A stretch of 64,000 bases of DNA from Chitinivibrionales bacterium (GTDB lineage: Bacteria > Fibrobacterota > Chitinivibrionia > Chitinivibrionales > WJKA01), in contig WJLZ01000167.1 of the NCBI GenBank assembly GCA_014728215.1, positions 1-64,000 of the forward strand, in the 5' to 3' direction. The notes under the pieces are model-generated. The model did no database searches. It had not been told where the DNA came from and was given only the letters and a program-made list of their open reading frames with translations. The position numbers and the translations under genes were made by a program. Every line of letters begins with the position of its first letter. Position 1 is the stretch's first letter. Positions 13,559 through 30,700 of the stretch are shown here, piece after piece.

Positions 13559-14776
13559 ATGACAATGTCTCAACTCCGCGGTGTTGCCCTCCTGCCGAAT
13601 CAGTTTGTATTCAAACATGCTTTTCCTGCTCTGGCGAAAGATCCACACACCTGGAAAACCATCGCCCCTCTTGGGCTCAGGAAATATTTTGCTGCAAGGG
13701 ATCCTGAAAAAGATATTCCTGTCGGTATGCTCTCACTCCGGGTTAATGAAGTATGCAACCTTCGATGCGGTTCATGCGGACAATGGGGTGAAAACGGGCA
13801 CCTTCGCGCTAAGTTGGATGCAGGCGAGAAACTGAACCGGCTCGATTTTGACGTCGTTAAACGGGTACTCTACGAAACAAAACGTGACAAACCTTTCTAC
13901 TATATCTGGGGTGGTGAACCCACCATGTGGAAACCATTGCTCCCCCTATTCCAGGAAATGGGCAAAAACAAGCTCTACGGCTCTATCGTTTCAAATGCCC
14001 AGTCTCTGGCGCCAATCATCGAAGATCTTATCGAAACAGGCGCCCTTGCCATTCTTTATTTGAGTCTTGATGGCTGGAATGCCGAATCGCAGAACCTCAT
14101 GCGCTCTCCGGCCCGGGGCAAAAAATCGGATAATTTTGAAAAAACCATGGAAATCATCGATCGGGTGGATGAAATCAAAAAAAGAAAAAACCTTGCTGCC
14201 CCCCTGGTTATTCCAATTACCGTGATATCCAATGATAACTATATGCATCTCTCCCAGATCCACCGTCTGGTTCGAGAAAAAACTCAACTTCACCCCTATT
14301 ACTTCGGATGGTATATCACCAAAGAACGTGCCGCACTCCACGAAGAGGTATTTGAAAAACGATTCGGCTACTTGCCAAAAAATCATAGAGGCTATCTCAA
14401 ATCCTGTTTTCAGGATGTCGATCCCAAACTTTGCGCTCAGCAGATACGGGAAACCCGTCGGATAGCCAAAGGATGGCCTTCGGTACCCCAATTTCTACCT
14501 GATATAACATCCGAAAGCCAGATTCGCCGCTACTACGAAGATCACACCTGGGATTGCGGATTCTCCTCCTGCGAAAGCATTTATGTCACCGCGGAAATTT
14601 CACCCGACGGCAGAATAACCCCCTGCCGGGACTATCAGGACTACACCTGCGGGAATATCAATGAACAGGCTTTCTACGAGGTTTGGAATGGTGAAGACTT
14701 TAAGGAATTCCGCAGACAAATGGGAAAAGGTCTCATGCCGGTATGCACCCGCTGCTGCGGCCTTCAGGGATTTTAG
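13559..14776 (+). CDS. Radical SAM / SPASM-type protein of unknown substrate
   Basis: The product (405 aa) has the radical SAM cluster motif EVCNLRCGSC with Cys66, Cys70 and Cys73, then the GGEPTMW motif. The C-terminal part holds a SPASM-like cysteine set (CGFSSCESIYVTAEISPDGRITPCRDYQDYTCGN and VCTRCCG), which would bind auxiliary Fe-S clusters. SPASM proteins often mature peptides or modify enzymes, but no small substrate gene is adjacent, and its closest neighbours are the divergent birA and convergent kamA-like genes. Two ATGs (13559, 13565) are possible starts after AGAAAGAA. The substrate is unknown. Confidence 0.8.
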   Translation: MTMSQLRGVALLPNQFVFKHAFPALAKDPHTWKTIAPLGLRKYFAARDPEKDIPVGMLSLRVNEVCNLRCGSCGQWGENGHLRAKLDAGEKLNRLDFDVVKRVLYETKRDKPFYYIWGGEPTMWKPLLPLFQEMGKNKLYGSIVSNAQSLAPIIEDLIETGALAILYLSLDGWNAESQNLMRSPARGKKSDNFEKTMEIIDRVDEIKKRKNLAAPLVIPITVISNDNYMHLSQIHRLVREKTQLHPYYFGWYITKERAALHEEVFEKRFGYLPKNHRGYLKSCFQDVDPKLCAQQIRETRRIAKGWPSVPQFLPDITSESQIRRYYEDHTWDCGFSSCESIYVTAEISPDGRITPCRDYQDYTCGNINEQAFYEVWNGEDFKEFRRQMGKGLMPVCTRCCGLQGF

Positions 14777-14915: not shown

Positions 14916-16046
14916 TTAATCCGGCCCGAAACATCGATAGGGATTTTCTGCAGCATAGTTCGACATAACTTCCCGGTAATCATCAAACCAGTATGCCCGT
15001 GGATTGCTCTCAAATTCCATGAACCCGGCTTTTTTCTGCGGGTGATATGCCCTGTGGTACCGGAAGTAAACCTTATGACGGCTTATTCCCAGGATCTCGA
15101 TTTTACCTGTTGAGTGAGACATGACGAGACGGGCTCTTTTGGCAAGTCCCGAACACTCCATCCGCGCCAGCTCAAAAATCCGGAACGATTTCTCTACCGG
15201 TACCGCAAAGGGATGATTTCCCGAGGTAGGCCTTCCCTGAAAAACGTAATAGGGCGGTATTCCGGCAAAAGAAAGCTTCTTGAATAATTCGGCCAGCACA
15301 TGGGGATCATCATTGATACCTTTCAACAGTGGGGTCTGGTTGCAGACAATAACGCCCGTCTTCTGAATAAGCGCCATCGCATCAAGTGCCTGCGGTGTCA
15401 ACTCCCGGGGATGATTGAAATGAGTCATCAAATAAATACGTTTTTCCGGAAGTGAGTACTTGTTGAATACTTCGAGCAGGCTCCGGTCATTGAGTATCCG
15501 GAAGGGATTGAATGCCGGCATTTTGCTTCCGATACGAATAATTTTGACATGATCAATCTGCCTGATTCCATGGATAATCTTACTCAGCTTGTTCGTCGAC
15601 AAAATCAACGGGTCGCCGCCGGTAAGAAGAACATTTGTCAGCTCGTTATGATCACGGATATACTCAAGAGCGGGCCCAATATCGCGGGTAACTTCATCGT
15701 TCAGATGCATAAACAGGCGCTTACGAAAACAGAACCGGCAATATCCTCCGCAAACATCGTTTACAAGAAGTAACGCGGTGTCCTCGTACTTGTGCTCCAG
15801 CCCCGGCGCTTTCGTATTCTTTCTTTCATCTGATGCATCGAGCCGTCCCCACACCTTTAATTCCCGGGTATCAGGTATAATTATCCGTCTGATCGGATCG
15901 TCGGGATCATCCCAGTTAATCAAGGAGAGGTAATAATCATTTGTTCGGAATGGATACTTTTCGCACACCGGTTTCAGAGCTTTACGTTCCTGCGGGATGA
16001 GATGCATAAGCTGATCGAGCTTGGTGATATACTTTGGTTGCTGCAT
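14916..16046 (-). CDS. KamA-family lysine 2,3-aminomutase-like radical SAM enzyme
   Basis: The 376-residue protein contains CGGYCRFCFRKR with Cys99, Cys103 and Cys106 for the 4Fe-4S cluster, VLLTGGDPL, and RIGSKMPAFNPFRI, all typical of the KamA/EpmB family. PPYYVFQGRPTSGNHPFAVPVEK replaces the usual PYYL-QCD motif. A lysine in SHSTGKIEILG near residue 322 probably binds PLP. The long C-terminal zinc-binding extension of clostridial lysine 2,3-aminomutase is absent. Candidates are a lysine aminomutase or an EF-P modifying EpmB-like enzyme; no epmA or efp gene is nearby, so I leave the substrate open. Confidence 0.75.
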   Translation of the reverse strand: MQQPKYITKLDQLMHLIPQERKALKPVCEKYPFRTNDYYLSLINWDDPDDPIRRIIIPDTRELKVWGRLDASDERKNTKAPGLEHKYEDTALLLVNDVCGGYCRFCFRKRLFMHLNDEVTRDIGPALEYIRDHNELTNVLLTGGDPLILSTNKLSKIIHGIRQIDHVKIIRIGSKMPAFNPFRILNDRSLLEVFNKYSLPEKRIYLMTHFNHPRELTPQALDAMALIQKTGVIVCNQTPLLKGINDDPHVLAELFKKLSFAGIPPYYVFQGRPTSGNHPFAVPVEKSFRIFELARMECSGLAKRARLVMSHSTGKIEILGISRHKVYFRYHRAYHPQKKAGFMEFESNPRAYWFDDYREVMSNYAAENPYRCFGPD

Positions 16047-16241
16047 AATCCTTAGCCTGAAATAATGTGACCGATCATGTATCTCGTTGGCACCAATAAT
16101 AACGCGCCATTTATAACCTCAAAAACGGCGCCATCCTGTGCACTTGTAAAGGTCGGGGTTTCATTTCCCCACGATAGAATCAAGCTGTTACAGATTAGAA
16201 TCGGAGACTCCGACAAGCGTTAAAATCCAACGGGCGGCGTT

Positions 16242-17555
16242 TTAATAGGAACGCCGCTCCTGCCGTTTCTTTTTGCGCTTATCTATAGGTATGAATGGCT
16301 TGCTTTTGGGCCCAATATAAATCTGCCGTGGACGATAAATTTTTGTTGATGATTCAACACCTTCTTTCCACTGAGCAATCCATCCGGGAAGTCTTCCCAA
16401 AGCGAACATTACTGTCAGCATATTTGTTGGAATACCGATAGCACGATAAAGAATACCTGTATAAAAATCGACATTGGGATATAATTTGCGGCTGACAAAA
16501 TAGTCATCATTCAAAGCGATATCTTCGAGTTCCATAGCGATGTCAAGCAAAGGGTCGACGATGCCGAGTTTTGGAAGGAATTCGTCACACAGCCGCTTGC
16601 TGAATTTAGCACGGGGATCATAATTTTTATATACCGCATGACCGAAACCCATCAGACGGAAATCGTCATTTTTATCTTTTGCTTTCTGAACATACTTCTT
16701 GATATTCCTGCCGTCGTTCTTAATTTTATTCAGCATCTCGATAACCGCCTGATTGGCGCCGCCGTGAAATGGCCCCCAGAGGGCACAAATACCGGCGGAA
16801 ATCGATGCATACAGATTGGCCCGCGCACTGGCGACAAGTCGCACGGCAGTTGCGGAACAGTTCTGACCATGATCGACATGGAGAATAAGCAATTTGTTCA
16901 GCAGCGTTACAATATCCGGATTAATATCATAATAGTTGACCGGTGAAGAAAACATCATGTTGAGAAAATTTGCACAATAGCTCAGGTCGTGACGTGGATA
17001 GACAAGCGGCTCGCCCTGTGATTTTTTATAGGAAAATGCCGCGATGGTTCTGACCTTCGAAATCAATCGTGCTGCGGTAATATCAAAATTAGGATCCTTG
17101 TGCGACAGCAGATGATAGAAACTCGATAAGGATGTCACCATTGAAGCCAGAACACCCATGGGATGAGAATCGGCAGGATAACCGGCAAAATAGTGGTGCA
17201 TATTTTCATGAATCATCGAGTGCTGATTTAAATATCTGCTGAAACGATTGAGTTCCTGAGCAGTCGGCAATTCACCATGAACAAGAAGATATGCAACTTC
17301 AACAAAGGAGCAGTTTTCTGCAAGGTCAATGATATTATACCCCCGATGACGGCACTGCCCGTTTTCTCCATCAACAAAGGTTATCGAACTTAAACATGAT
17401 GATGTATTTGCAAAACCATTATCAAAGGTTGTGCAGTTTGCATCGGCTTTTAATCGGCTGATATCAATACCGACCTGATTTTCGGTTCCTTCGATAATCG
17501 GAAGTTCAACATTATGGTTTTTTATTTTTAATCGCGCTTTCTGCGGTGTACTCAT
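16242..17555 (-). CDS. gltA: Citrate synthase
   Basis: Citrate synthase condenses oxaloacetate and acetyl-CoA at the head of the TCA cycle. The protein (437 aa) is of the bacterial type II form, with YRGYNI-like RHRGYNI, HVDHGQNCSATAVR, GPFHGGANQAVIEML with the catalytic His, and MGFGHAVYKNYDPRA. The C-terminal PRQIYIGP is typical. The catalytic Asp region near LAIGIP-type sequence is present as RAIGIPTNMLTVMFALGR. It is monocistronic: 195 bases separate it from the upstream kamA-like gene start and 180 from thpR. Confidence 0.93.
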   Translation of the reverse strand: MSTPQKARLKIKNHNVELPIIEGTENQVGIDISRLKADANCTTFDNGFANTSSCLSSITFVDGENGQCRHRGYNIIDLAENCSFVEVAYLLVHGELPTAQELNRFSRYLNQHSMIHENMHHYFAGYPADSHPMGVLASMVTSLSSFYHLLSHKDPNFDITAARLISKVRTIAAFSYKKSQGEPLVYPRHDLSYCANFLNMMFSSPVNYYDINPDIVTLLNKLLILHVDHGQNCSATAVRLVASARANLYASISAGICALWGPFHGGANQAVIEMLNKIKNDGRNIKKYVQKAKDKNDDFRLMGFGHAVYKNYDPRAKFSKRLCDEFLPKLGIVDPLLDIAMELEDIALNDDYFVSRKLYPNVDFYTGILYRAIGIPTNMLTVMFALGRLPGWIAQWKEGVESSTKIYRPRQIYIGPKSKPFIPIDKRKKKRQERRSY

Positions 17556-21855: not shown

Positions 21856-23298
21856 ATGAAACAGGCAGTAATCTCCACCAGAAATAAAGACGCCGTGGCG
21901 ATTCTTAAATCGTGTCTTCAGAAAGAATATACCGCCGACTTTTTAGAAAATCCCAACGATTGTCTTGATCGGCTTCAGAAACAACGATATGAACTCCTGT
22001 TTATCGATATCCTTGCCCTGAGAAAAATGAGTATCGAATACGCTCAAGCAAATAATTACCGAAAACTGCTCAATCCCTTCTGGAAAACCGCTCCCTCTCT
22101 TGAGATAATTATTCTCTGCTCTCAGGAAAATATCCGGAAAGCCGTTGATGCCGTGCGGGCAGGAGCAAGCAATTACCTGACTTTTCCGCTCGATAAGAAA
22201 GAGGCGGAATATGTTATCGAAACCACCCTCGAGGCGACCCGTGCGCAGTCGGAACTCGATTATTTCCGTGACCAATTCTGGGATTCCGACTCATTAAGAA
22301 TTGTCAGCACCAAAAATTCGACCATGCGCACAGTCTTCAGTAAGGTCAAATCGGTTGCCCCCTCGGCAACGACTGTCTTGATTACCGGAGAAACAGGGAC
22401 AGGTAAGGGATTGATATCAAAGCTGATACACTCAAATAGCCCTCGAAATAGCAAACCCTTTATCAGTGTCCATTGCGGGGCGATACCCGAAAATCTTATT
22501 GAAAGCGAACTCTTTGGCCATGAACGAGGAGCATTTACCGGCGCGGTAAAACGAAAACTCGGAAAATTTGAAATTGCCGGTGATGGCACCATTTTTCTGG
22601 ATGAGATCGGCACTATGCCGCTTTCTGCACAAATCAAACTCCTGCAGGTATTGCAAGAGAAGCATTTTCAGCGAGTTGGAGGTGAAACTGATATCTATAC
22701 CAGTGCCCGGATTATCGCAGCATCTAACGCCAATCTCACATCAATGATTGAAAAGGGTGAATTCAGAAGGGACCTTTACTACCGGCTGAATGTCTTTCCT
22801 ATCGAACTTCCACCCCTCTGCGAACGCCTTGAGGATATTCCATCACTTGCCAATGATTTTCTTTTTCGGCTGAATACGACCCATTCAAAAAATATTAAAA
22901 GCATTCATCCTGAAGTGCTTGATGCATTTTATTGCTATTCCTGGCCGGGCAATATCCGGGAAATGGAAAACCTGATGGAACGGGCCTATCTCATTGAAAA
23001 ATCATCAATTCTGACACCAGAAAGCTTTCCGGGCGAATTATTCACCAGCCAAAAGACTGTTGCCGAAATCCCGTTGATTACCTCCCTCACCCTCGCCGAA
23101 CTTCGAAAAACCAGCTATGCCGATATCGAAAGAAATTACCTGAAAGGGCTTCTGGCAAAAAATCAGGGAAGAATCGACAGCACCGCTCGCGCAGCAGGAA
23201 TCACGACCAGACAACTCCACAAATTACTCACCAAACACGCTATCCGAAAAGAAGAATTCAAAAAATCGGAATTCAGCCGACAGGTTCAAGAACAATGA
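21856..23298 (+). CDS. Sigma-54-dependent transcriptional activator with degenerate receiver
   Basis: The 480-residue protein has three parts. Residues 1-125 resemble a response-regulator receiver: Asp51 is in the phosphorylation position, but the N-terminal acidic pair is absent (VISTRNK) and the lysine of the usual TKP motif is replaced (LTFPLDK). Residues 150-385 are the AAA+ domain with Walker A GETGTGKG (178-185), the sigma-54 contact loop GAFTGA (225-230) and Walker B TIFLDE. A Fis-type helix-turn-helix (RIDSTARAAGITTRQLHKLLTKH) ends the protein. No sensor kinase is adjacent. A strong sigma-54 promoter match lies 112 bases downstream, so the next genes are likely targets. Confidence 0.9.
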   Translation: MKQAVISTRNKDAVAILKSCLQKEYTADFLENPNDCLDRLQKQRYELLFIDILALRKMSIEYAQANNYRKLLNPFWKTAPSLEIIILCSQENIRKAVDAVRAGASNYLTFPLDKKEAEYVIETTLEATRAQSELDYFRDQFWDSDSLRIVSTKNSTMRTVFSKVKSVAPSATTVLITGETGTGKGLISKLIHSNSPRNSKPFISVHCGAIPENLIESELFGHERGAFTGAVKRKLGKFEIAGDGTIFLDEIGTMPLSAQIKLLQVLQEKHFQRVGGETDIYTSARIIAASNANLTSMIEKGEFRRDLYYRLNVFPIELPPLCERLEDIPSLANDFLFRLNTTHSKNIKSIHPEVLDAFYCYSWPGNIREMENLMERAYLIEKSSILTPESFPGELFTSQKTVAEIPLITSLTLAELRKTSYADIERNYLKGLLAKNQGRIDSTARAAGITTRQLHKLLTKHAIRKEEFKKSEFSRQVQEQ

Positions 23299-23409
23299 GT
23301 TCCGAAATAATGAAAAATGCGACACCAGCGTTCCTAAAATAAGCGATAATGCATGCTCTCCCTGAACAGAGCTGCTATTCCTGCCAAAATCTACCTATCC
23401 AGACCACGT

Positions 23410-23425
23410 TGGCATACTGATTGCA
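23410..23425 (+). promoter_or_regulatory. Sigma-54 promoter candidate
   Basis: TGGCAT-ACTGA-TTGCA matches the -24/-12 consensus TGGCAC-N5-TTGCA at all but one position, with correct GG to GC spacing. It lies between the sigma-54 activator gene and the small acidic protein, about 260 bases ahead of the latter's ATG. The rest of 23299-23687 holds no gene that I can support. Confidence 0.65.
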
Positions 23426-23687
23426 TTATTCCTTCAGAAAATTGAACCGGACCAGATCATATCCCGGAAACATTTATTAACGGCGAAACATCATTTAACT
23501 AACAAAAAAGCAGTAACTTACATTTTTAGGCCAAGCACACTGAGCGTTTGATATCAATCAAATAAAGCATTGATATTACTGAAGATAAATAAATGTTCAC
23601 TGTAAAACCGGTGGATTTGGTTTTCCGCCAATCACCAATGGTCGTAATCCATTGAAAATATTTAAATTAGAAAGGAAGGGTAGATCT

Positions 23688-23837
23688 ATGGCCTATGGAG
23701 AGCTTCGATTCGAGGATGAAGACGATGGTGCCGCCTTTCATGAAGAATGTGAATTTTGTGGTCGAATCAGCGGTCATGACCCCGATTGTGTAATGACCGA
23801 CAAATATGATGCGTTTGATGAAATTGAAGATGTTTGA
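23688..23837 (+). CDS. Very small acidic Cys-containing protein
   Basis: The 49-residue product has a strongly acidic composition (EDEDDG, DAFDEIEDV) and a CEFCGRISGHDPDC segment with three cysteines, which might bind a metal or form a thioether/disulfide. GAAAGGAAGGG precedes the ATG at 23688. The stop is TGA; the same frame stays open beyond it with another acidic stretch (23844 to about 23990) before a strong terminator. It is the first gene behind the sigma-54 promoter candidate and just ahead of the ATP-grasp/M20 fusion. I do not recognise a family; it could be a substrate, carrier or small regulator. Confidence 0.6.
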   Translation: MAYGELRFEDEDDGAAFHEECEFCGRISGHDPDCVMTDKYDAFDEIEDV

Positions 23838-24003
23838 TGCTCTATGCCAACAATTGGAATGCAGGCGGAAAATAACGGTGAAGCAATTGTCCTTGATTCC
23901 GACAGTGATCCGGCTGTAAGCGATAAGCAAGAAGATAAAACATTGGATCAAGAGGAAGAGTCGGACGAATATTCATTTGAAAAGATACGATTAGTTTTCG
24001 CAA

Positions 24004-24040
24004 GCGGGGGCAGCCCTTTACTGTCTCCGCATTTTTTTTG
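24004..24040 (+). terminator. Strong intrinsic terminator
   Basis: GCGGGGGCAG (24004-24013) pairs fully, with two wobble pairs, with CTGTCTCCGC (24021-24030) and is followed by ATTTTTTTTG. It should end the short transcript from the sigma-54 promoter before the ATP-grasp gene, perhaps with read-through. Confidence 0.85.
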
Positions 24041-24206
24041 CTTTTGTTGCCATTCATTGTGTGCTGTTGTTTCAAAGAAAATTATACGTAACAGTTGTTT
24101 TTTCTAGTATTTTCACATTTTCAATGTGGGATATGAAAGTTATTCCTCTTGCAATTCCTTTATTGACCCGGAGGCCAAGATTCCACTCCATCGAGAAAGG
24201 TGAGAA

Positions 24207-26387
24207 GTGAAGATAGCTGTAATATTCAATAAAACCGCTGTACAGGCTGATGATGTCATTGAGATATTCGGTCCCCAGACAAAAGAGCGTTATAATCCGA
24301 AAACGGTGGAGAAAGTTGCTACCGCCCTTGAAAAGTGTGGACATAATGTGCGGGTAATTGAGGGCAATATTAACGTCGCAGAGGAGCTTCGCAATTTCAT
24401 GCCCCGGGTTATGGAAGGCGAAAAACCGGGTATGGTATTCAATATGGCCTATGGCATACAGGGCCAGAGCAGATACACCCATATTCCGGCGATGCTTGAA
24501 ATGCTTGGCGTACCCTATGTCGGCTCCGGACCCCAGGCCCATGCGGTGGCACTCGATAAGGTCATGAGTAAGATTGTTTTTGAGCAGCACAATCTTCCCA
24601 CACCGCGCTACTGGCTTTTTTCATCGGCCAATGAAAATCTTGCCCGTGAGGTACTCTTTCCTGCTATTGTGAAACCGAAGATGGAAGCGGTTTCCATGGG
24701 AATTGCAGTAGTGCATTCTACCGGGGAACTGCTTGAGGCCGTAATAAACATCACACAGACGTTCAGTCAACAGGCTCTGGTTGAAGAGTTTATTGCCGGA
24801 AGAGAGTTTGCCGTAGGACTTTTAGGCAACGGACCAGATCTTGAAACATTTCCTGTTGTCGAATTTGATTTTGGCGGCATTAAAGAAGGTATTCAGAGTC
24901 ATGATGCAAAGATGATGGCACCGGTATCGAAGGTTTGTCCGGCAAAAATACCCGAAGAACTCAATAATGAACTGAAGCGAATTGCCAAAGAAGCCTTTAA
25001 TGCCCTTGGCACACTCGATTTTGCCCGAATCGATTTCCGGGTAGATGGATCGAACAAGATATACATTCTTGAGATAAATTCGATGGCCAGTCTTGGTATG
25101 ACCGGTTCCTATGTCTGTTCGGCAAAGGCAAATGGGTATTCATTCGAAATCCTGGTTAACCGTATTGTGGAGGTTGCCACAACCCGGTATTTTGGAAATC
25201 GTTTCATTACTGCGCCGGAAGAGGAAGAACTCCGGGCACGGGATGAAGCCATGCCGCTTCGAGTTCGGCTAAGGAGTCATGTGCGGGGAAACATCCCGGC
25301 TATTATCGACTATGTAAAACTCATGACCAGAATGGATACTTATGTCAATGATACCGAGGGGATAAATTCATTGGGAAACTGGATATCGGCCCGAATGAAA
25401 AATCTTGGATTCAACCGTCAGGTATTCCCCCAGACCGAAGCAGGAAATATTCTTTATTTTACCAACCATGAAGACCAACACAATGATATCCTGCTTATAA
25501 GTCATCTCGATACGATCTATACCTATTCGGAACGGGTCCCCTACAGGGAAGTACAGGGACGGATCTACGGTTCGGGTATTGCCGAGAGCAAAGGTGGTCT
25601 GGCAGTCATGCTCGGAGCATTGCAGGCGCTCCGGTTTACCCGCTGGCTGAAAAAAGTGCGATGCGCGGTTCTCTGCATTACCGATGATTCCCTGGGAGGT
25701 AAATTCGGCGGCAAATTGATTACCGACTTCTCGAAAAAATCAAAATATACCGTTGGTTTGAAATCTGGAGGAAAGGCTGGAGGTATTATAACTTCATGCA
25801 GCGGCAGTGCCAAATACCAGATTGTTCTTTCTCATGCCCGTAGTCCCGAAGAATCGAAACAGACCGACATTATCGGTGTGACGGCACATAAAATCCTTGC
25901 ATGGCAAAAACTCGATTCGGAAAAAGACGGGCTCATGGTTCGGCCTGTATCACTCGAAGCGAAAACGGGGTTCGGCCTCTCAACCGATTATGCAAAGACT
26001 GCTCTGGAAGTTCGATTCAAAGATGAGAAACAGGTGGATATCCTCAATGAAGAAATCAGAAAGATTGCCGGAAAAAGCATCGATTCAAAAGTCCGGATTA
26101 GAGTAAAAAGAAGCATCTACTGCCCCGCATTCAATGAAAACCAGCATGTGAACGACTTTTACGGCAAGGTAAAAGTAATGGCCGAAAAACTGGAAGTACG
26201 GGCCGCATCGATACACCGGATAACATCATCGGCCATCGGGTATGTTGTTCCCGAGAGCCGTGCACTGGAAGGACTCGGGCCCGCAGGAGGCGATCAGCGT
26301 TCTCCTACCGAATATATAATCAGGGACAGCTTACTGGACCGTGCTACCTTGCTTGCCTTGATCATCCGGATGTCGATAAAAGATTAA
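24207..26387 (+). CDS. DdlA-like ATP-grasp ligase fused to M20-peptidase-like domain
   Basis: The 726-residue protein has two halves. Residues 1-335 are a D-Ala-D-Ala ligase-like ATP-grasp: PYVGSGPQAHAVALDK (103-118), VKPKMEAVSMGI (155-166), VEEFIAGREF (192-201), RIDFR and the metal-binding EIN (289-291). Residues about 355-726 follow the M20 plan: SHLDT with His433 and Asp435, GSGIAESKGG, TDDSLGG and GPAGGDQRSPTEY. Usual M20 ligands are altered: the Asp of GxxDxKGG is Glu460, the Glu-Glu pair is Asp494-Ser495, and the late His is Arg698, so peptidase activity is doubtful. Start is GTG after GAAAGGTGAGA. GGT- and FGase-like genes follow almost without gap. It may join an amino acid to a peptide or acid substrate. 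Confidence 0.8.
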   Translation: MKIAVIFNKTAVQADDVIEIFGPQTKERYNPKTVEKVATALEKCGHNVRVIEGNINVAEELRNFMPRVMEGEKPGMVFNMAYGIQGQSRYTHIPAMLEMLGVPYVGSGPQAHAVALDKVMSKIVFEQHNLPTPRYWLFSSANENLAREVLFPAIVKPKMEAVSMGIAVVHSTGELLEAVINITQTFSQQALVEEFIAGREFAVGLLGNGPDLETFPVVEFDFGGIKEGIQSHDAKMMAPVSKVCPAKIPEELNNELKRIAKEAFNALGTLDFARIDFRVDGSNKIYILEINSMASLGMTGSYVCSAKANGYSFEILVNRIVEVATTRYFGNRFITAPEEEELRARDEAMPLRVRLRSHVRGNIPAIIDYVKLMTRMDTYVNDTEGINSLGNWISARMKNLGFNRQVFPQTEAGNILYFTNHEDQHNDILLISHLDTIYTYSERVPYREVQGRIYGSGIAESKGGLAVMLGALQALRFTRWLKKVRCAVLCITDDSLGGKFGGKLITDFSKKSKYTVGLKSGGKAGGIITSCSGSAKYQIVLSHARSPEESKQTDIIGVTAHKILAWQKLDSEKDGLMVRPVSLEAKTGFGLSTDYAKTALEVRFKDEKQVDILNEEIRKIAGKSIDSKVRIRVKRSIYCPAFNENQHVNDFYGKVKVMAEKLEVRAASIHRITSSAIGYVVPESRALEGLGPAGGDQRSPTEYIIRDSLLDRATLLALIIRMSIKD

Positions 26388-26413
26388 CCGTGCCACCAAA
26401 AAGGAGCTTTTCC

Positions 26414-28006
26414 ATGCATGGCTCGTCGCAAAAATTCGCTGTTTCAAAAAACGGTATGGTTTCTACGGCCTTTCCTTTAGCCACCGAAGCCGGTGTTGCA
26501 ATGTTGAGGGCCGGTGGCAATGCCATTGATGCCGCCTGTGCTGCAGCCTGGACCCTGGGTGTATGCGAACCCCAGGCAAGCGGCCTCGGCGGTCAAACCA
26601 TGATGCTTCTTTATGGTGGTCGAAAAGTAATTGCTCTGGACGGTTCCTCCCGGGCTCCATCACTGACCCATGTCAATGCAATTTACCGGGATGACCGGAC
26701 ATTGGGATACAGGGCATCAACCGTACCCAGCACCCCGGCAACGCTCGGATATGCACATCTGCGCTACGGAACATTGCCCCGGGAGCAGATTATGGAACCG
26801 GCAATTGCCGCTGCCGCCCACGGCTACACGATCACTCCCCTGCAGCACCGTCTCCAGCATGAACAACTAGAAAACTTCAATATAATCGAATCCCGCTCGG
26901 GCGCCGATTATTTCCTTGATAATGGCACCGCCTATGCAGAAGGCGCGCTCTTTCGTCAACCCGACCTGGCGGTGCTCCTTAAGACATTATCAATAAAGGG
27001 AATAGAAGAATTCTACAATGGCACGACAGCCAAACAGATCGATGCTGATATGCGGGAAAACGGCGGACTACTCCGGTATGATGATCTTGCCCTTATTCCC
27101 TTGCCTCTTCTCAGAACACCACTCAAGTGCACATTCAGAAAACACCGGGTCTATTCCATGCCCCCGCCGGGGGCAGGACGGTCCCTTCTGTTTGCACTTC
27201 TGATGATCGATGCTATTCCGGCAAAACTGCTGAGAGATAAGGACCGCCGAAGGCTTCATATATTCGCCGAAGTCTTCCGAAAAACCCTGCTCGAAAGAGC
27301 CGACAGACCCTTTGATCCCAATTTCTATCCTCAACATCACGAAAAAGATATGCTCGACCGCTCATATTCACGTGAGAGTATTACCGAGCTCATAAATGCT
27401 GTCGATAGAACTATTTTACCATCCCTTATTACCGAAGATGAAATTTCGGGCGAAACAACGCATCTTTCGGTTATTGACCACAATGGATGGGCGGTCAGCC
27501 TGACACAATCAATCGAACGGGTATACGGCAGCAAAGCCGCCGCCGGAGGCCTGGGCTTCCTTTATAATAACTATCTTTCCGATTTTGAATACAAACTTCC
27601 GGAAAATCCCTATTATCTTCGCCCCAATTCCGTTCCCTGGGCATCAGTAGCACCTTCACTGATATTCAAAAAAGGAGAATTATGGATGGCTCTTGGATCA
27701 CCCGGCAGCGGGCGGATCTTCTCTACACTGGCCCAGTTCCTGGTCCATGTCATCGATGATAAAATGTCGCTCTTCGATGCCATGAATGCTCCGAGGATCC
27801 ATTGCTCACTGGGAGGACGGGTCAGCATCGAACGAGAACGGTTCCCGCAAGGCGTTGTCGATTTCCTTGAAGCAAAAGGGTACCGTATCGATCTGAGAGA
27901 TCCCTATGCTTTTTACCTCGGTGCGGTTCATGCTGTTGTAATGTCGGAAAATGAATTCGAGGGAGTAGCGGAAATCCGGCGAGATGGAACGGCAGGCGGA
28001 ATATAA
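26414..28006 (+). CDS. Gamma-glutamyltranspeptidase-like Ntn hydrolase
   Basis: The 530-residue protein is of the GGT family, which cleaves or transfers gamma-glutamyl groups after self-processing at an internal Thr. The processing and nucleophile site GETTHLSV is present with Thr348 as the likely new N-terminus, plus AAAWTLGVCEPQASGLGGQ near 43-61, PPPGAGRS near 250, and GSPGSGRI near the end. No signal peptide is visible, unlike E. coli Ggt, so it may act in the cytoplasm with its neighbours. I chose the ATG at 26414 after AAGGAG; an in-frame GTG at 26390 is less likely. It sits 26 bases after the ATP-grasp fusion. Confidence 0.85.
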   Translation: MHGSSQKFAVSKNGMVSTAFPLATEAGVAMLRAGGNAIDAACAAAWTLGVCEPQASGLGGQTMMLLYGGRKVIALDGSSRAPSLTHVNAIYRDDRTLGYRASTVPSTPATLGYAHLRYGTLPREQIMEPAIAAAAHGYTITPLQHRLQHEQLENFNIIESRSGADYFLDNGTAYAEGALFRQPDLAVLLKTLSIKGIEEFYNGTTAKQIDADMRENGGLLRYDDLALIPLPLLRTPLKCTFRKHRVYSMPPPGAGRSLLFALLMIDAIPAKLLRDKDRRRLHIFAEVFRKTLLERADRPFDPNFYPQHHEKDMLDRSYSRESITELINAVDRTILPSLITEDEISGETTHLSVIDHNGWAVSLTQSIERVYGSKAAAGGLGFLYNNYLSDFEYKLPENPYYLRPNSVPWASVAPSLIFKKGELWMALGSPGSGRIFSTLAQFLVHVIDDKMSLFDAMNAPRIHCSLGGRVSIERERFPQGVVDFLEAKGYRIDLRDPYAFYLGAVHAVVMSENEFEGVAEIRRDGTAGGI

Positions 28007-28008
28007 CA

Positions 28009-28782
28009 ATGAAACTCCCTGTCCTGATTACCATCCCCCATGGTGGCACATCTGTACCACCCGAAATTAACGATCATATTGCACTTACACCGGAGGATAT
28101 TCTCAAAGATGGAGACGCCTTTACCCGGGAGATATACGACCTGCGCAATAATGCGGTCGATACAATTATCTCGGAAACGGCCCGTGCGATTATCGACGTC
28201 AATCGTGCTCCCGATGATTTTCCACCGGGGAACCCTGATGGAGTTCTGAAAAGCGTTACCTGTTATAATAAATCGGTGTATTTGCCCGGAAAAACACCCG
28301 AAAGCAAAACTGCAGACCTGCTGCTGAAACGGTATTATGCCTCATTTCACCGAAAAATCAACAATTCTCTTGCAAGAAATAAGGAATTAAAGCTCGGATT
28401 GGACTGCCATTCAATGGCGGCATTCGCTCCTCCGATATCCCCGGACAGACAAAGTCCCCGACCCGCAATATGCCTTGGCAATCGCAGAGGTCAAAGCTGC
28501 CCTTTTCCCCTTGTGGAAAAACTCAGAGAGCGCCTTTCCGATGCCTTTGCTGTTTCGAAAAATGATATACGAATTAACGATCCCTTTGCAGGTGGCTATA
28601 TTATCGGGACCTATGGGAACGAACCAATACCCTGGATTCAAATAGAACTCAACAGAAATTTATACATGACATTGCCTTCAAAGGAAGGCGAAAAAATTCT
28701 CCAGGATAATACAAGAATTCAAGACGTTAACCGAAAACTTAACCAGGGCTTACAAAGCTTTTTCCGCTCCTGCGGACTTTAA
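28009..28782 (+). CDS. N-formylglutamate amidohydrolase-like protein
   Basis: The 257-residue protein matches the FGase family (hydrolysis of N-formylglutamate or related N-acyl amino acids by a zinc site): TIPHGGTSVPPE near residue 9, AIIDVNRAPDDF, GLDCHSMA near 129, and a late IQIELNRNLYM. The His and Glu residues expected to bind zinc are present. It starts two bases after the GGT stop and so is surely co-translated with it. In histidine degradation this enzyme acts on formylglutamate, but no hut gene is near; in this setting the substrate is more likely a gamma-glutamyl or acylated amino acid compound. Confidence 0.85.
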   Translation: MKLPVLITIPHGGTSVPPEINDHIALTPEDILKDGDAFTREIYDLRNNAVDTIISETARAIIDVNRAPDDFPPGNPDGVLKSVTCYNKSVYLPGKTPESKTADLLLKRYYASFHRKINNSLARNKELKLGLDCHSMAAFAPPISPDRQSPRPAICLGNRRGQSCPFPLVEKLRERLSDAFAVSKNDIRINDPFAGGYIIGTYGNEPIPWIQIELNRNLYMTLPSKEGEKILQDNTRIQDVNRKLNQGLQSFFRSCGL

Positions 28783-28786
28783 CAAA

Positions 28787-28960
28787 CTATTCCCAAAGAT
28801 CTTCAGCATCATTGACATCGCTGACGATCTCAGCATAACCGTCTTTGGCTCTGTTTTCGAAATCAAGCTCTTCTACATCATCCTCATTAGAGAAATCTTC
28901 CTCGTAATCCTCATGTTCACGAAGAATTTCATCAGCATCATAGGATTCATTCAGCAGCAT
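28787..28960 (-). CDS. Small acidic protein, convergent with the amidohydrolase gene
   Basis: The frame encodes 57 residues starting MLLNESYDADEILREHEDY and ending NDAEDLWE, with nearly 40 percent Asp and Glu and few basic residues. AAGGAG lies eight bases ahead of the ATG, a strong initiation signal. It has no cysteines, unlike the other acidic peptide at 23688, and no signal peptide. It converges on the amidohydrolase gene with four bases between stops. A sigma-54-like promoter occurs about 230 bases upstream. Its role is unknown; a substrate or partner of the adjacent ligase/hydrolase set is an attractive guess. Confidence 0.65.
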   Translation of the reverse strand: MLLNESYDADEILREHEDYEEDFSNEDDVEELDFENRAKDGYAEIVSDVNDAEDLWE

Positions 28961-29483
28961 GCAACCTTCTCCTTAAAACGTTTAAATCAGAACCATTCCT
29001 TCTTATTTTTATAAAAAAGGAATAATTATTTCTTATTTCCTTTCCCCTAGCCAAAGGAAAGTATCTGGCAAAATGGTTAATGGCAGCAAAAATCGCAAGA
29101 CCCATTATCCATTAATTCAGCAAGCTATGTAATTTAATAAAAAATTTTGAAAAATTCATGAAAAATTTCATTTATTTAAAAAAATATCTGCAAATATAAT
29201 GCCTTTTCATTTCTTATCCTACCACCCCTCTTCATCGGTAAAATCATGAGCAATTATCCGCAATTTTTTTGTTTCATTTTTATCATTATTTTTAATCTGG
29301 AGTATTCTTGCACCAATCATTAACTATCAGAGGGGAATACCCCTTTGAGGGGATACGCCCCCGGCTTTCGCCAACCACAGCCTTACAAGAGTGCAACCAC
29401 TCCTTTTTGGTAACCGGCTCGACGGTATTTCAAGAAACCACCGACAGTAAAACAGGATGATTCAAATAATTGTTAAAAAAGAA
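28961..29483. other. Gene-free, AT-rich region upstream of the small acidic gene
   Basis: These 523 bases hold the sigma-54-like site at 29189-29204 and otherwise long A/T runs. A 52-codon open stretch on the minus strand overlaps the start of the acidic gene but lacks a binding site. A short CCCC/GGGG hairpin occurs near 29340. Nothing else is recognisable. Confidence 0.4.
29189..29204 (-). promoter_or_regulatory. Sigma-54-like promoter candidate
   Basis: On the minus strand AGGCAT-TATAT-TTGCA has the invariant GG and GC at the right spacing and a perfect TTGCA. It points toward the small acidic gene at 28787..28960 and leaves a leader of about 230 bases, much like the plus-strand site at 23410. 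Confidence 0.45.
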
Positions 29484-30700
29484 TCAAGTGCTTGATATAT
29501 ATGTTGGATAGGAAGAATAATTCAACAATGAAACCGGCGTTGCTTTCTGTGCATACGGCCAGCTATGTTCCGAAGGAAGGAGTCCTTTGGTATAGCACTT
29601 TTTGAGCATGGTTCCCAATCCTTCAACATGGAAATACAAGGTGTCTCTCTTTTTCGTTCTTTTGATGAGACTGCTCGGAAATGTCGATATCCCGGTAATT
29701 GATTCCTGACCGCCGTTTACGCAAAGCGTTAAAGGAGTCGCCGCTTCAATTCCGCAGAGGGTCGGTTTATCATTGCGAACAGCATCAATCGTCTGCAGCA
29801 CCTTTTCATAAGGGTCATCCATGGGAGAGCCGTAACTCTTTGTATTTCCATTATTAAACCGTGCGATCAAATTCTGACTTCCTTCGGCAAAAGTAACCCT
29901 GGCATTTTCAAACTCGAATTCGAACAGGGGCCCAATTTGTTCTTTTGTCGTATGTGATGCATAATGAAGGACTTGCACGCCGGAATCGGTGACACATCGC
30001 AGGGCGGCAGTATCATAATTTTCGATTGGATACGCACGAAACGCCTCGATTTCGATGCTCGATGGAACTGCACTCCTTTCGGTTTGTTTGCCAAGTACAT
30101 AGAGTGAGTTGTGAAGAAAATGAGCGGTGGCATTTTGCACCGGGCTGTCGAGTACCCATTTACCGTCGGGATCTTTCAGCTTTCCCGCCCAGTTGTTTCG
30201 ATGATAATATGATTCCGGCCGGGGCCAGAAAGTCAGGCTTTTAAAGATTTTGGAGCACCGAATACCCCCTTCAGAACATCCTGTTTCAAAGCTTGAATCG
30301 CCCTGCTGAATGACCATTGATAGCCGATTGCCACCAGCTTGCCTGTTCTATCACGAACATTTTTCATTGTCTGGATACCCTGAACAACTCCGCAAATGGG
30401 CTTTTCACAAAGCACATTGCTCCCCTGCTCCAGAGCAAAACAGGTGTGCGGAACATAATATTGGATCGGCGTCGGAATTATCATCAGGTCTACGGATAGA
30501 TTATCATAAAATGCTTCAAAGGAAGAAAAGATTCGAATTCTCCTGTCTTTTAGCTCTTGCAGGCGGATACATTCATTGGGATTGATACTGATCGCGCCGG
30601 CGAAAGTTACCGAACTCACCGTGCGGTCGAGCAATGCGGAAAGAAAGAAATTACTGTAACCGGTAAGCGCTGCAAGACCAACGGAGATATCCTTTCCCAT
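29484..30700 (-). CDS. Gfo/Idh/MocA-family dehydrogenase, frame broken at a slippery heptamer
   Basis: The N-terminal part (154 codons from 30700) has a Rossmann-like start, IPTPIQYYVPHTCFALEQGSNVLCEKPICG, the EKP motif of the family, and GYQWSFSRAIQALK. Its frame reaches TGA at 30233. The C-terminal part continues in the -1 frame from 30239 with SLTFWPRPESYYHRNNWAGK and runs to 29484. Reading both gives about 405 residues, a normal family length. The switch coincides with T-TTA-AAA at 30245-30239, a classic -1 slippery heptamer. It could be programmed frameshifting, a real mutation, or a sequence error. The substrate is probably a sugar or inositol; a cupin gene is translated just ahead. Confidence 0.7.

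Follow-up and report, generated by a model that had tools for sequence, protein, structure and literature searches.

A putative sigma-54-controlled cassette with a Ddl-like ligase fused to a degenerate M20 domain in a Chitinivibrionales bacterium

A gene cassette that may form and process a small amide is described here from a Chitinivibrionales bacterium, in a stretch of 64,000 nucleotides (nt) of contig WJLZ01000167.1 (assembly GCA_014728215.1) that was analysed at its full length and is called the window; the genome from which it comes (G000) is 96% complete. The listing of open reading frames (ORFs) and the sequence itself recover, in order, the gene of a sigma-54 activator, a sigma-54 site, the gene of a small acidic protein of 49 amino acids (aa), named small1, a fusion of an ATP-grasp ligase with an M20 peptidase-like domain, and the genes of enzymes resembling gamma-glutamyltranspeptidase (GGT) and N-formylglutamate amidohydrolase (FGase) (Table 1). 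A preliminary description of this DNA, made from its letters alone, had given this gene order and its motifs, and both are borne out by the ORF, sequence and Pfam checks, as is the tight packing (2-26 bases) reported for the enzyme genes, given that 2 nt separate the fusion from the GGT-like gene, or 26 nt if a later ATG is the GGT start, and another 2 nt separate the GGT-like gene from the FGase-like gene. Literature searches found no paper on this cassette.

Table 1. Features of the window treated in the text, with coordinates, strand and basis of the assignment
Feature	Coordinates	Strand	Basis or remark
Sigma-54 activator	21856..23298	+	AAA+ with GAFTGA; Pfam Sigma54_activat 6.6e-68; ortholog in sister genome G001
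Sigma-54 -24/-12 site TGGCATACTGATTGCA	23410..23425	+	score 13.9, p = 0.004
small1, 49-aa acidic protein, CxxC...HxxxC	23688..23837	+	ATG at 23688; motif CEFCGR..GHDPDC
Acidic ORF, probably decayed	23844..24107	+	tblastn E 4.9e-4 over 58 columns to 107-aa ORF of G001
ATP-grasp half of fusion (Ddl-like ligase)	24207..25199	+	Dala_Dala_lig_C 2.7e-31 (Pfam); tree
M20-like half of fusion	25254..26387	+	Peptidase_M20 4.7e-10 (Pfam); degenerate active site; whole fusion 24207-26387
GGT-family Ntn-hydrolase, changed donor pocket	26390..28006	+	G_glu_transpept 7.1e-108 (Pfam)
FGase-family amidohydrolase	28009..28782	+	FGase 1.6e-44 (Pfam); sole FGase match in genome
small2, acidic 57-aa protein	28787..28960	-	class-wide family; judged outside the cassette
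KamA-like radical SAM protein	14916..16046	-	TIGR00238 210.8 bits, above cut-off; outside the cassette

A syntenic order is found in the second genome of the same genus, the sister genome G001, in which an epimerase gene, the activator, a 49-aa protein, a 107-aa acidic ORF, the fusion, the GGT-like gene and the FGase-like gene follow one another, and the contig stops after the last of these. The identity between the two genomes is 82% for the epimerase, 76% for the activator, 61% for small1, 77% for the ATP-grasp part and 68% for the M20 part of the fusion, 77% for the GGT-like enzyme and 48% for the FGase-like enzyme, and the ratio of nonsynonymous to synonymous differences per site (pN/pS) is 0.16-0.26 across the block and 0.44 in the FGase-like gene, values that come from a single genome pair with synonymous sites near or at saturation. 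Judging from these comparisons, the block is under purifying selection and more than a chance association, and the cassette is real and conserved within the genus.

Further comparisons drew on 40 class and 167 phylum genomes, together with plasmid, phage, viral and genome contig records. The activator, the receiver domain of which matches Response_reg weakly (24.8 bits against the Pfam cut-off of 30.2), is matched at E 1e-110 in three of the class genomes, i.e., its own, the sister genome and G039. The best sigma-54 site before small1 scores 13.9 both in the window (389 nt, p = 0.004) and in the sister genome (169 nt, p = 0.001), with p values taken from 2000 Markov shuffles of the upstream sequence, although this score alone is little proof, given that four sites of the 64-kb window reach at least 13.9, two of them within genes of the block. 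In G039 (L043), a relative of the activator (49% identical) adjoins two Ddl-like ligases and the gene of a KamA-like radical SAM protein, and a stretch of 16 kb holds five sites scoring at least 12.4, one of which, GGGAACGATCTTTGCT (13.1), is near the KamA start. The activator thus stands near ligases in a second family of the class as well, which supports the sigma-54 control and shared pathway proposed earlier, whereas the ligases of G039 fall on other Ddl-like branches and no GGT, FGase or M20 fusion match accompanies them. Two other genomes of its genus (G031 and G027), which carry KamA and tandem ligases, gave no activator match in the stretches fetched.

The strongest new point is, at the level of sequence comparison, the link to rhizobial ligase genes that lie behind putative sigma-54 sites. 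Ligases of the same clade are present at full length in 13 rhizobial plasmid records, with part of one in a 14th, and are 39-44% identical to the window ligase, the next plasmid matches being near 30%; in a tree of 54 rows, the two ligases of the window genus form a group with ten rhizobial ones (support 87/96) that excludes the remaining Ddl-like proteins of the sample. At 11 of the 13 loci, a near-consensus sigma-54 site scoring at least 14 precedes the ligase, or the gene row to which it belongs, by no more than 550 nt, with one further site downstream of a ligase and none on the opposite strand in 168 kb; the Markov background for sites of at least 14.5 is 0.003 per kb. Given that two of the 13 records are from the same strain and that the promoter sequences are related, these 11 sites do not represent independent events. 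The neighbours of the rhizobial ligases include amino-acid-ligase-like proteins, KamA, transporters and peptidases.

For example, a plasmid of Bradyrhizobium barranii (NZ_CP088281, L060) carries a row of genes for a KamA-like protein, a GGT, a 7TM_transglut protein and the ligase, with a sigma-54 site 71 nt before the first gene; the ligase is 44% and the GGT 41% identical to the window counterparts, and this GGT is the top-ranking one of the 733 plasmid records that the window GGT matches. The row differs from the window in that its ligase has no M20 part, no FGase or small1 match rises beyond chance and a 7TM_transglut gene is present, while KamA stands within the row, its window counterpart being encoded 6 kb off, on the opposite strand. 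Taken together, the 13 rhizobial ligases share with the window both the clade and the sigma-54 sites, and they differ from it in that the fusion is missing and a GGT gene is adjacent in Bradyrhizobium only.

Given the site found in both genomes of the genus, and the presence in Bradyrhizobium of a ligase and a GGT of the same subfamilies packed together behind a sigma-54 site, it is very likely that the cassette is under sigma-54 control, as the preliminary description had proposed, and its suggestion of a pathway shared by the ligase and the amidohydrolases is also supported. The activator next to the cassette may be the one that acts on this promoter. The proposed tie of the enzymes to small acidic genes and to an activator fares unevenly outside the genus, given that the ligase and GGT recur with sigma-54 sites, whereas small1, among the class genomes and plasmids searched, is found in this genus alone.

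Two published systems provide partial parallels. In a nifA mutant of Paraburkholderia phymatum, the Ddl-like gene Bphy_7633 is reported to drop by log2 8.45 (PMC8305402). This gene resembles those of the window clade in that it encodes a Ddl-like ligase; it is carried on a symbiosis plasmid and preceded by a sigma-54-like site. Its identity to the clade is only about 25-28%, and it is therefore an analogy provided by another gene. The Pseudomonas rlo operon, as far as its description in PMC12239564 goes, combines an ATP-grasp protein with an inactive-transglutaminase/7TM protein, similar to the 7TM protein in Bradyrhizobium, whereas it has an aspartic protease where Bradyrhizobium and the window have a GGT, and its ATP-grasp protein is compared there with RimK.

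The ligase half of the fusion scores 165.8 bits at best, below the curated NCBIfam Ddl cut-off of 243, and keeps the metal-binding E-x-N of Ddl enzymes: its ATP-grasp domain ends with EIN, which aligns with the EVN of solved Ddl. The M20 half, for which carboxypeptidase G2 is the nearest solved relative, retains in both genomes the first His alone of the metal and catalytic set (H, D, E-E, E, H). In comparison with three control M20 proteins, it has AESKGG at the control D (D to E), DDS or DDT for DEE, and K for the further Glu, while the last His has become R in the window but is kept in the sister genome, and the GGGSDA and lid segments are altered or shortened. Given that the active site is largely lost and that the sequence is nevertheless under purifying selection (pN/pS 0.26), this half appears to be a retained pseudo-peptidase, which speaks against the trimming that had been attributed to it.

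The full fusion is found in two of the 167 phylum genomes, and two more match at E 1e-28 through a Ddl-like protein only. In the wider records, viral contigs provided no relative, none of the 26 phage or 638 plasmid records matched over 80% of the query and the genome contigs gave one distant Ddl, although absence elsewhere is not established by this, given that the viral and genome scans used few peptide patterns derived from two sequences or one. A structure prediction of the fusion made from two sequences had a mean predicted local distance difference test (pLDDT) score of 31.5 and was not used.

The GGT-like enzyme keeps the Thr nucleophile, with ETTHLSV aligned with the autoprocessing site, and no signal peptide is evident on inspection by eye. 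At the positions that we take to be R114, N411, Q430 and S462 of the Escherichia coli enzyme, it has S, E, Y and A; in the Bradyrhizobium GGT, H, Q and Y take the first three positions and the fourth is still S. Of six GGT-family controls, two classical ones keep the Arg and the other four lack it, so its change is not unique to this group. With these donor-site residues changed, the gamma-glutamyl chemistry invoked earlier loses its footing, and a gamma-glutamyl specificity of the enzyme is not supported. Matches to this GGT at E 1e-30 occur in four of the phylum genomes, two of them at only 29-32% identity.

The FGase-like enzyme reaches 95.1 bits against a HutG equivalog cut-off of 278.75, and the genome has no match to PF00221, the histidine ammonia-lyase family; a role in histidine utilisation is rejected on these two results. 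Relatives are found in ten of the 167 phylum genomes, eight of which are outside the genus, and no ATP-grasp neighbour was seen at the four of these eight loci that were read by eye, with no family search.

No Pfam or NCBIfam family matches small1, and convincing relatives are limited to two of the 40 class genomes, the two of this genus, with ten more matching at E 0.18-0.88 and no plasmid match below E 0.5. The two sequences, which have a pN/pS of 0.22 in this one pair, are similar along their whole length, and end in V or S. The ORF that follows small1, which was absent from the preliminary description, is a short relative of the 107-aa ORF of the sister genome (L036, 4047-4370); the latter is very acidic, has a signal-peptide-like start and stands after small1 and before the fusion. 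Among the 13 rhizobial loci, certain longer leaders contain short ORFs, none of which encodes an acidic protein like small1.

The converging gene small2 belongs to a family of acidic proteins of ~60 aa with conserved ends (DADEILRD ... DLWE), which follow the pattern ...DADEILRD...MRELNFGN..DENANFSDMASDLD..DDLWE, variable even in its last residue, and match none of the Pfam families tested. The family is matched at E 0.05 in 32 of the 40 class genomes, with four copies in the window genome, two in the sister genome, where the corresponding position would lie beyond the contig end, and three in G002. Among 34 neighbourhoods compared, most of them reaching only ~1.5 kb to either side, one neighbour recurs in 27 and another in 19; judged by motifs rather than by a family search, the two resemble LpxH and an HIT protein. 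A second small acidic gene is present, as had been noted, but the promoter assigned to it is weak, with p = 0.039 against shuffles, and sites reach p 0.05 before two of the 33 copies with upstream sequence, the window copy being one of these. Since the family is class-wide and stands mostly beside other genes, small2 is rejected as a second peptide of the pathway and is taken, on its distribution, as a paralog that probably adjoins the cassette by chance. This distribution, together with the lack of a similar acidic ORF in the rhizobial leaders, argues against the earlier view of two small acidic proteins as substrates. Further along (29484-30700, minus strand), the GFO_IDH_MocA match of the upstream ORF runs over a second ORF, which is also on the minus strand but in a different frame, and the two look like a single oxidoreductase gene with a frame break.

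The KamA-like protein of the window is 39-41% identical to the Bradyrhizobium KamA, and the latter shares 33-36% identity with the other KamA proteins that were compared; the window protein is of the rhizobial subfamily. That KamA supplies an amino acid is no more than a suggestion. In two other rhizobia, a KamA of the same type is flanked on either side by a protein annotated as biotin carboxylase family, and two related loci have ATP-grasp proteins with an L-amino acid ligase domain. The window gene stands next to citrate synthase (14916-17555, minus strand), an order kept in the sister genome and in G007, a genome with neither the fusion nor the GGT; a SPASM radical SAM protein is encoded close by in the window (13559-14776). 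A KamA of Paenibacillus has no match to other window proteins nearby. In G031 and G027 (L039 and L040), KamA accompanies two tandem Ddl-like ligases, with a 399-aa gene after them, an arrangement kept in both genomes. A Thioflavicoccus plasmid (L076, 2464-7945) carries a Ddl-like ligase, a diaminobutyrate aminotransferase, SbnA-like and ornithine cyclodeaminase-like proteins and KamA, which suggests a diamino-acid peptide as the product of that cluster.

The explanation that best accommodates these data, held tentatively and with a little less than an even chance of being right, is an amino-acid ligase cassette for a small amide, switched by sigma-54, in which the M20 domain is dead and the small protein is accessory. 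A signal would switch on the adjacent activator, which would fire the promoter at 23410, so that small1, the ligase, the GGT-like enzyme and the FGase-like enzyme are co-expressed. The ATP-grasp half would activate a carboxylate and join an amine to it, while the fused M20 domain, which would not hydrolyse, may bind the substrate or hold the dimer, and the next step, transfer or removal of an acyl group, would fall to the GGT-like and FGase-like enzymes; the small CxxC/HxxxC protein may be accessory, as a metal-binding, regulatory or carrier protein. The order of these steps and the product are our inference. It is most likely a small amide that the enzymes form and process, not a modified acidic peptide, and the product is most likely a di- or oligopeptide, which may contain an unusual amino acid. 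Given this, the sigma-54 control and the shared pathway of the preliminary description stand, whereas its acidic substrates, its trimming by the M20 domain and its gamma-glutamyl chemistry do not.

Several observations weigh against this explanation. The spacing of ~370 nt between small1 and the fusion makes one transcript for both an assumption, the FGase-like gene diverges faster than the other genes of the block, and the support of 87 for the ligase clade is below 95. In the rhizobia, a GGT gene stands beside the ligase in one strain only (two of the 13 records, Bradyrhizobium), neither the FGase nor the M20 fusion occurs at the ligase loci, four of which were compared with the window proteins for this, and the two loci outside the 11 have, respectively, a site 1.7 kb upstream and none. 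Literature searches, as far as they go, show no known activity for any member of the ligase clade.

An unlikely alternative is a catabolic or salvage cassette, in which the GGT-like and FGase-like enzymes degrade an imported amide or peptide, the ligase re-couples or conjugates a fragment and sigma-54 answers to the nitrogen supply. Two of the three enzymes belong to hydrolase families, sigma-54 control often serves nitrogen use, and peptide or ABC transporters are found near some rhizobial ligases, whereas the ORFs and Pfam matches reveal no transporter among the cassette genes of the window, the genome lacks a PF00221 lyase, and the joint occurrence of ligase, GGT and KamA in Bradyrhizobium is more like synthesis.

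The modification of an acidic peptide, as first proposed, would make small1 the precursor, the ligase its modifying enzyme and the hydrolases the trimming step. The position of small1 next to the ligase in both genomes, behind a common promoter region, agrees with this, but the reading is improbable, given that small1 is conserved from end to end with no variable core (in one pair), that the ligase is Ddl-like and of no known graspetide type, that the rhizobial leaders have no small acidic gene and that the M20 domain is degenerate.

It is more improbable still that small1 is a new kind of carrier, on which a Ddl-type ligase loads amino acids, with docking through the dead M20 domain, and from which the GGT-like and FGase-like enzymes free the completed amide; if true, a carrier-protein pathway controlled by sigma-54 would here rest on a ligase of the Ddl type. 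A LysW-like amino-group carrier pathway, in which small1 would carry an amino acid during synthesis, is equally remote: the LysW pathway does bring together a small acidic Cys protein, an ATP-grasp ligase and an M20 domain, but LysW ends in a C-terminal Glu and is served by a RimK/LysX-type ligase, whereas small1 ends in V or S, beside a Ddl-like ligase and a degenerate M20 domain, and membership of the LysW type is rejected on the missing C-terminal Glu and the Ddl-like ligase.

Finally, under the tentatively preferred reading of an amino-acid ligase cassette, Ddl-like ligases and one GGT-like group would be tied across two distant lineages by a common control, that of sigma-54. The ligase fused to a degenerate peptidase would be a clear case of a pseudoenzyme domain kept in an amide-forming enzyme, and the rhizobial members, given that they are carried on the plasmids of nodule bacteria, may make a compound that matters in nodules.

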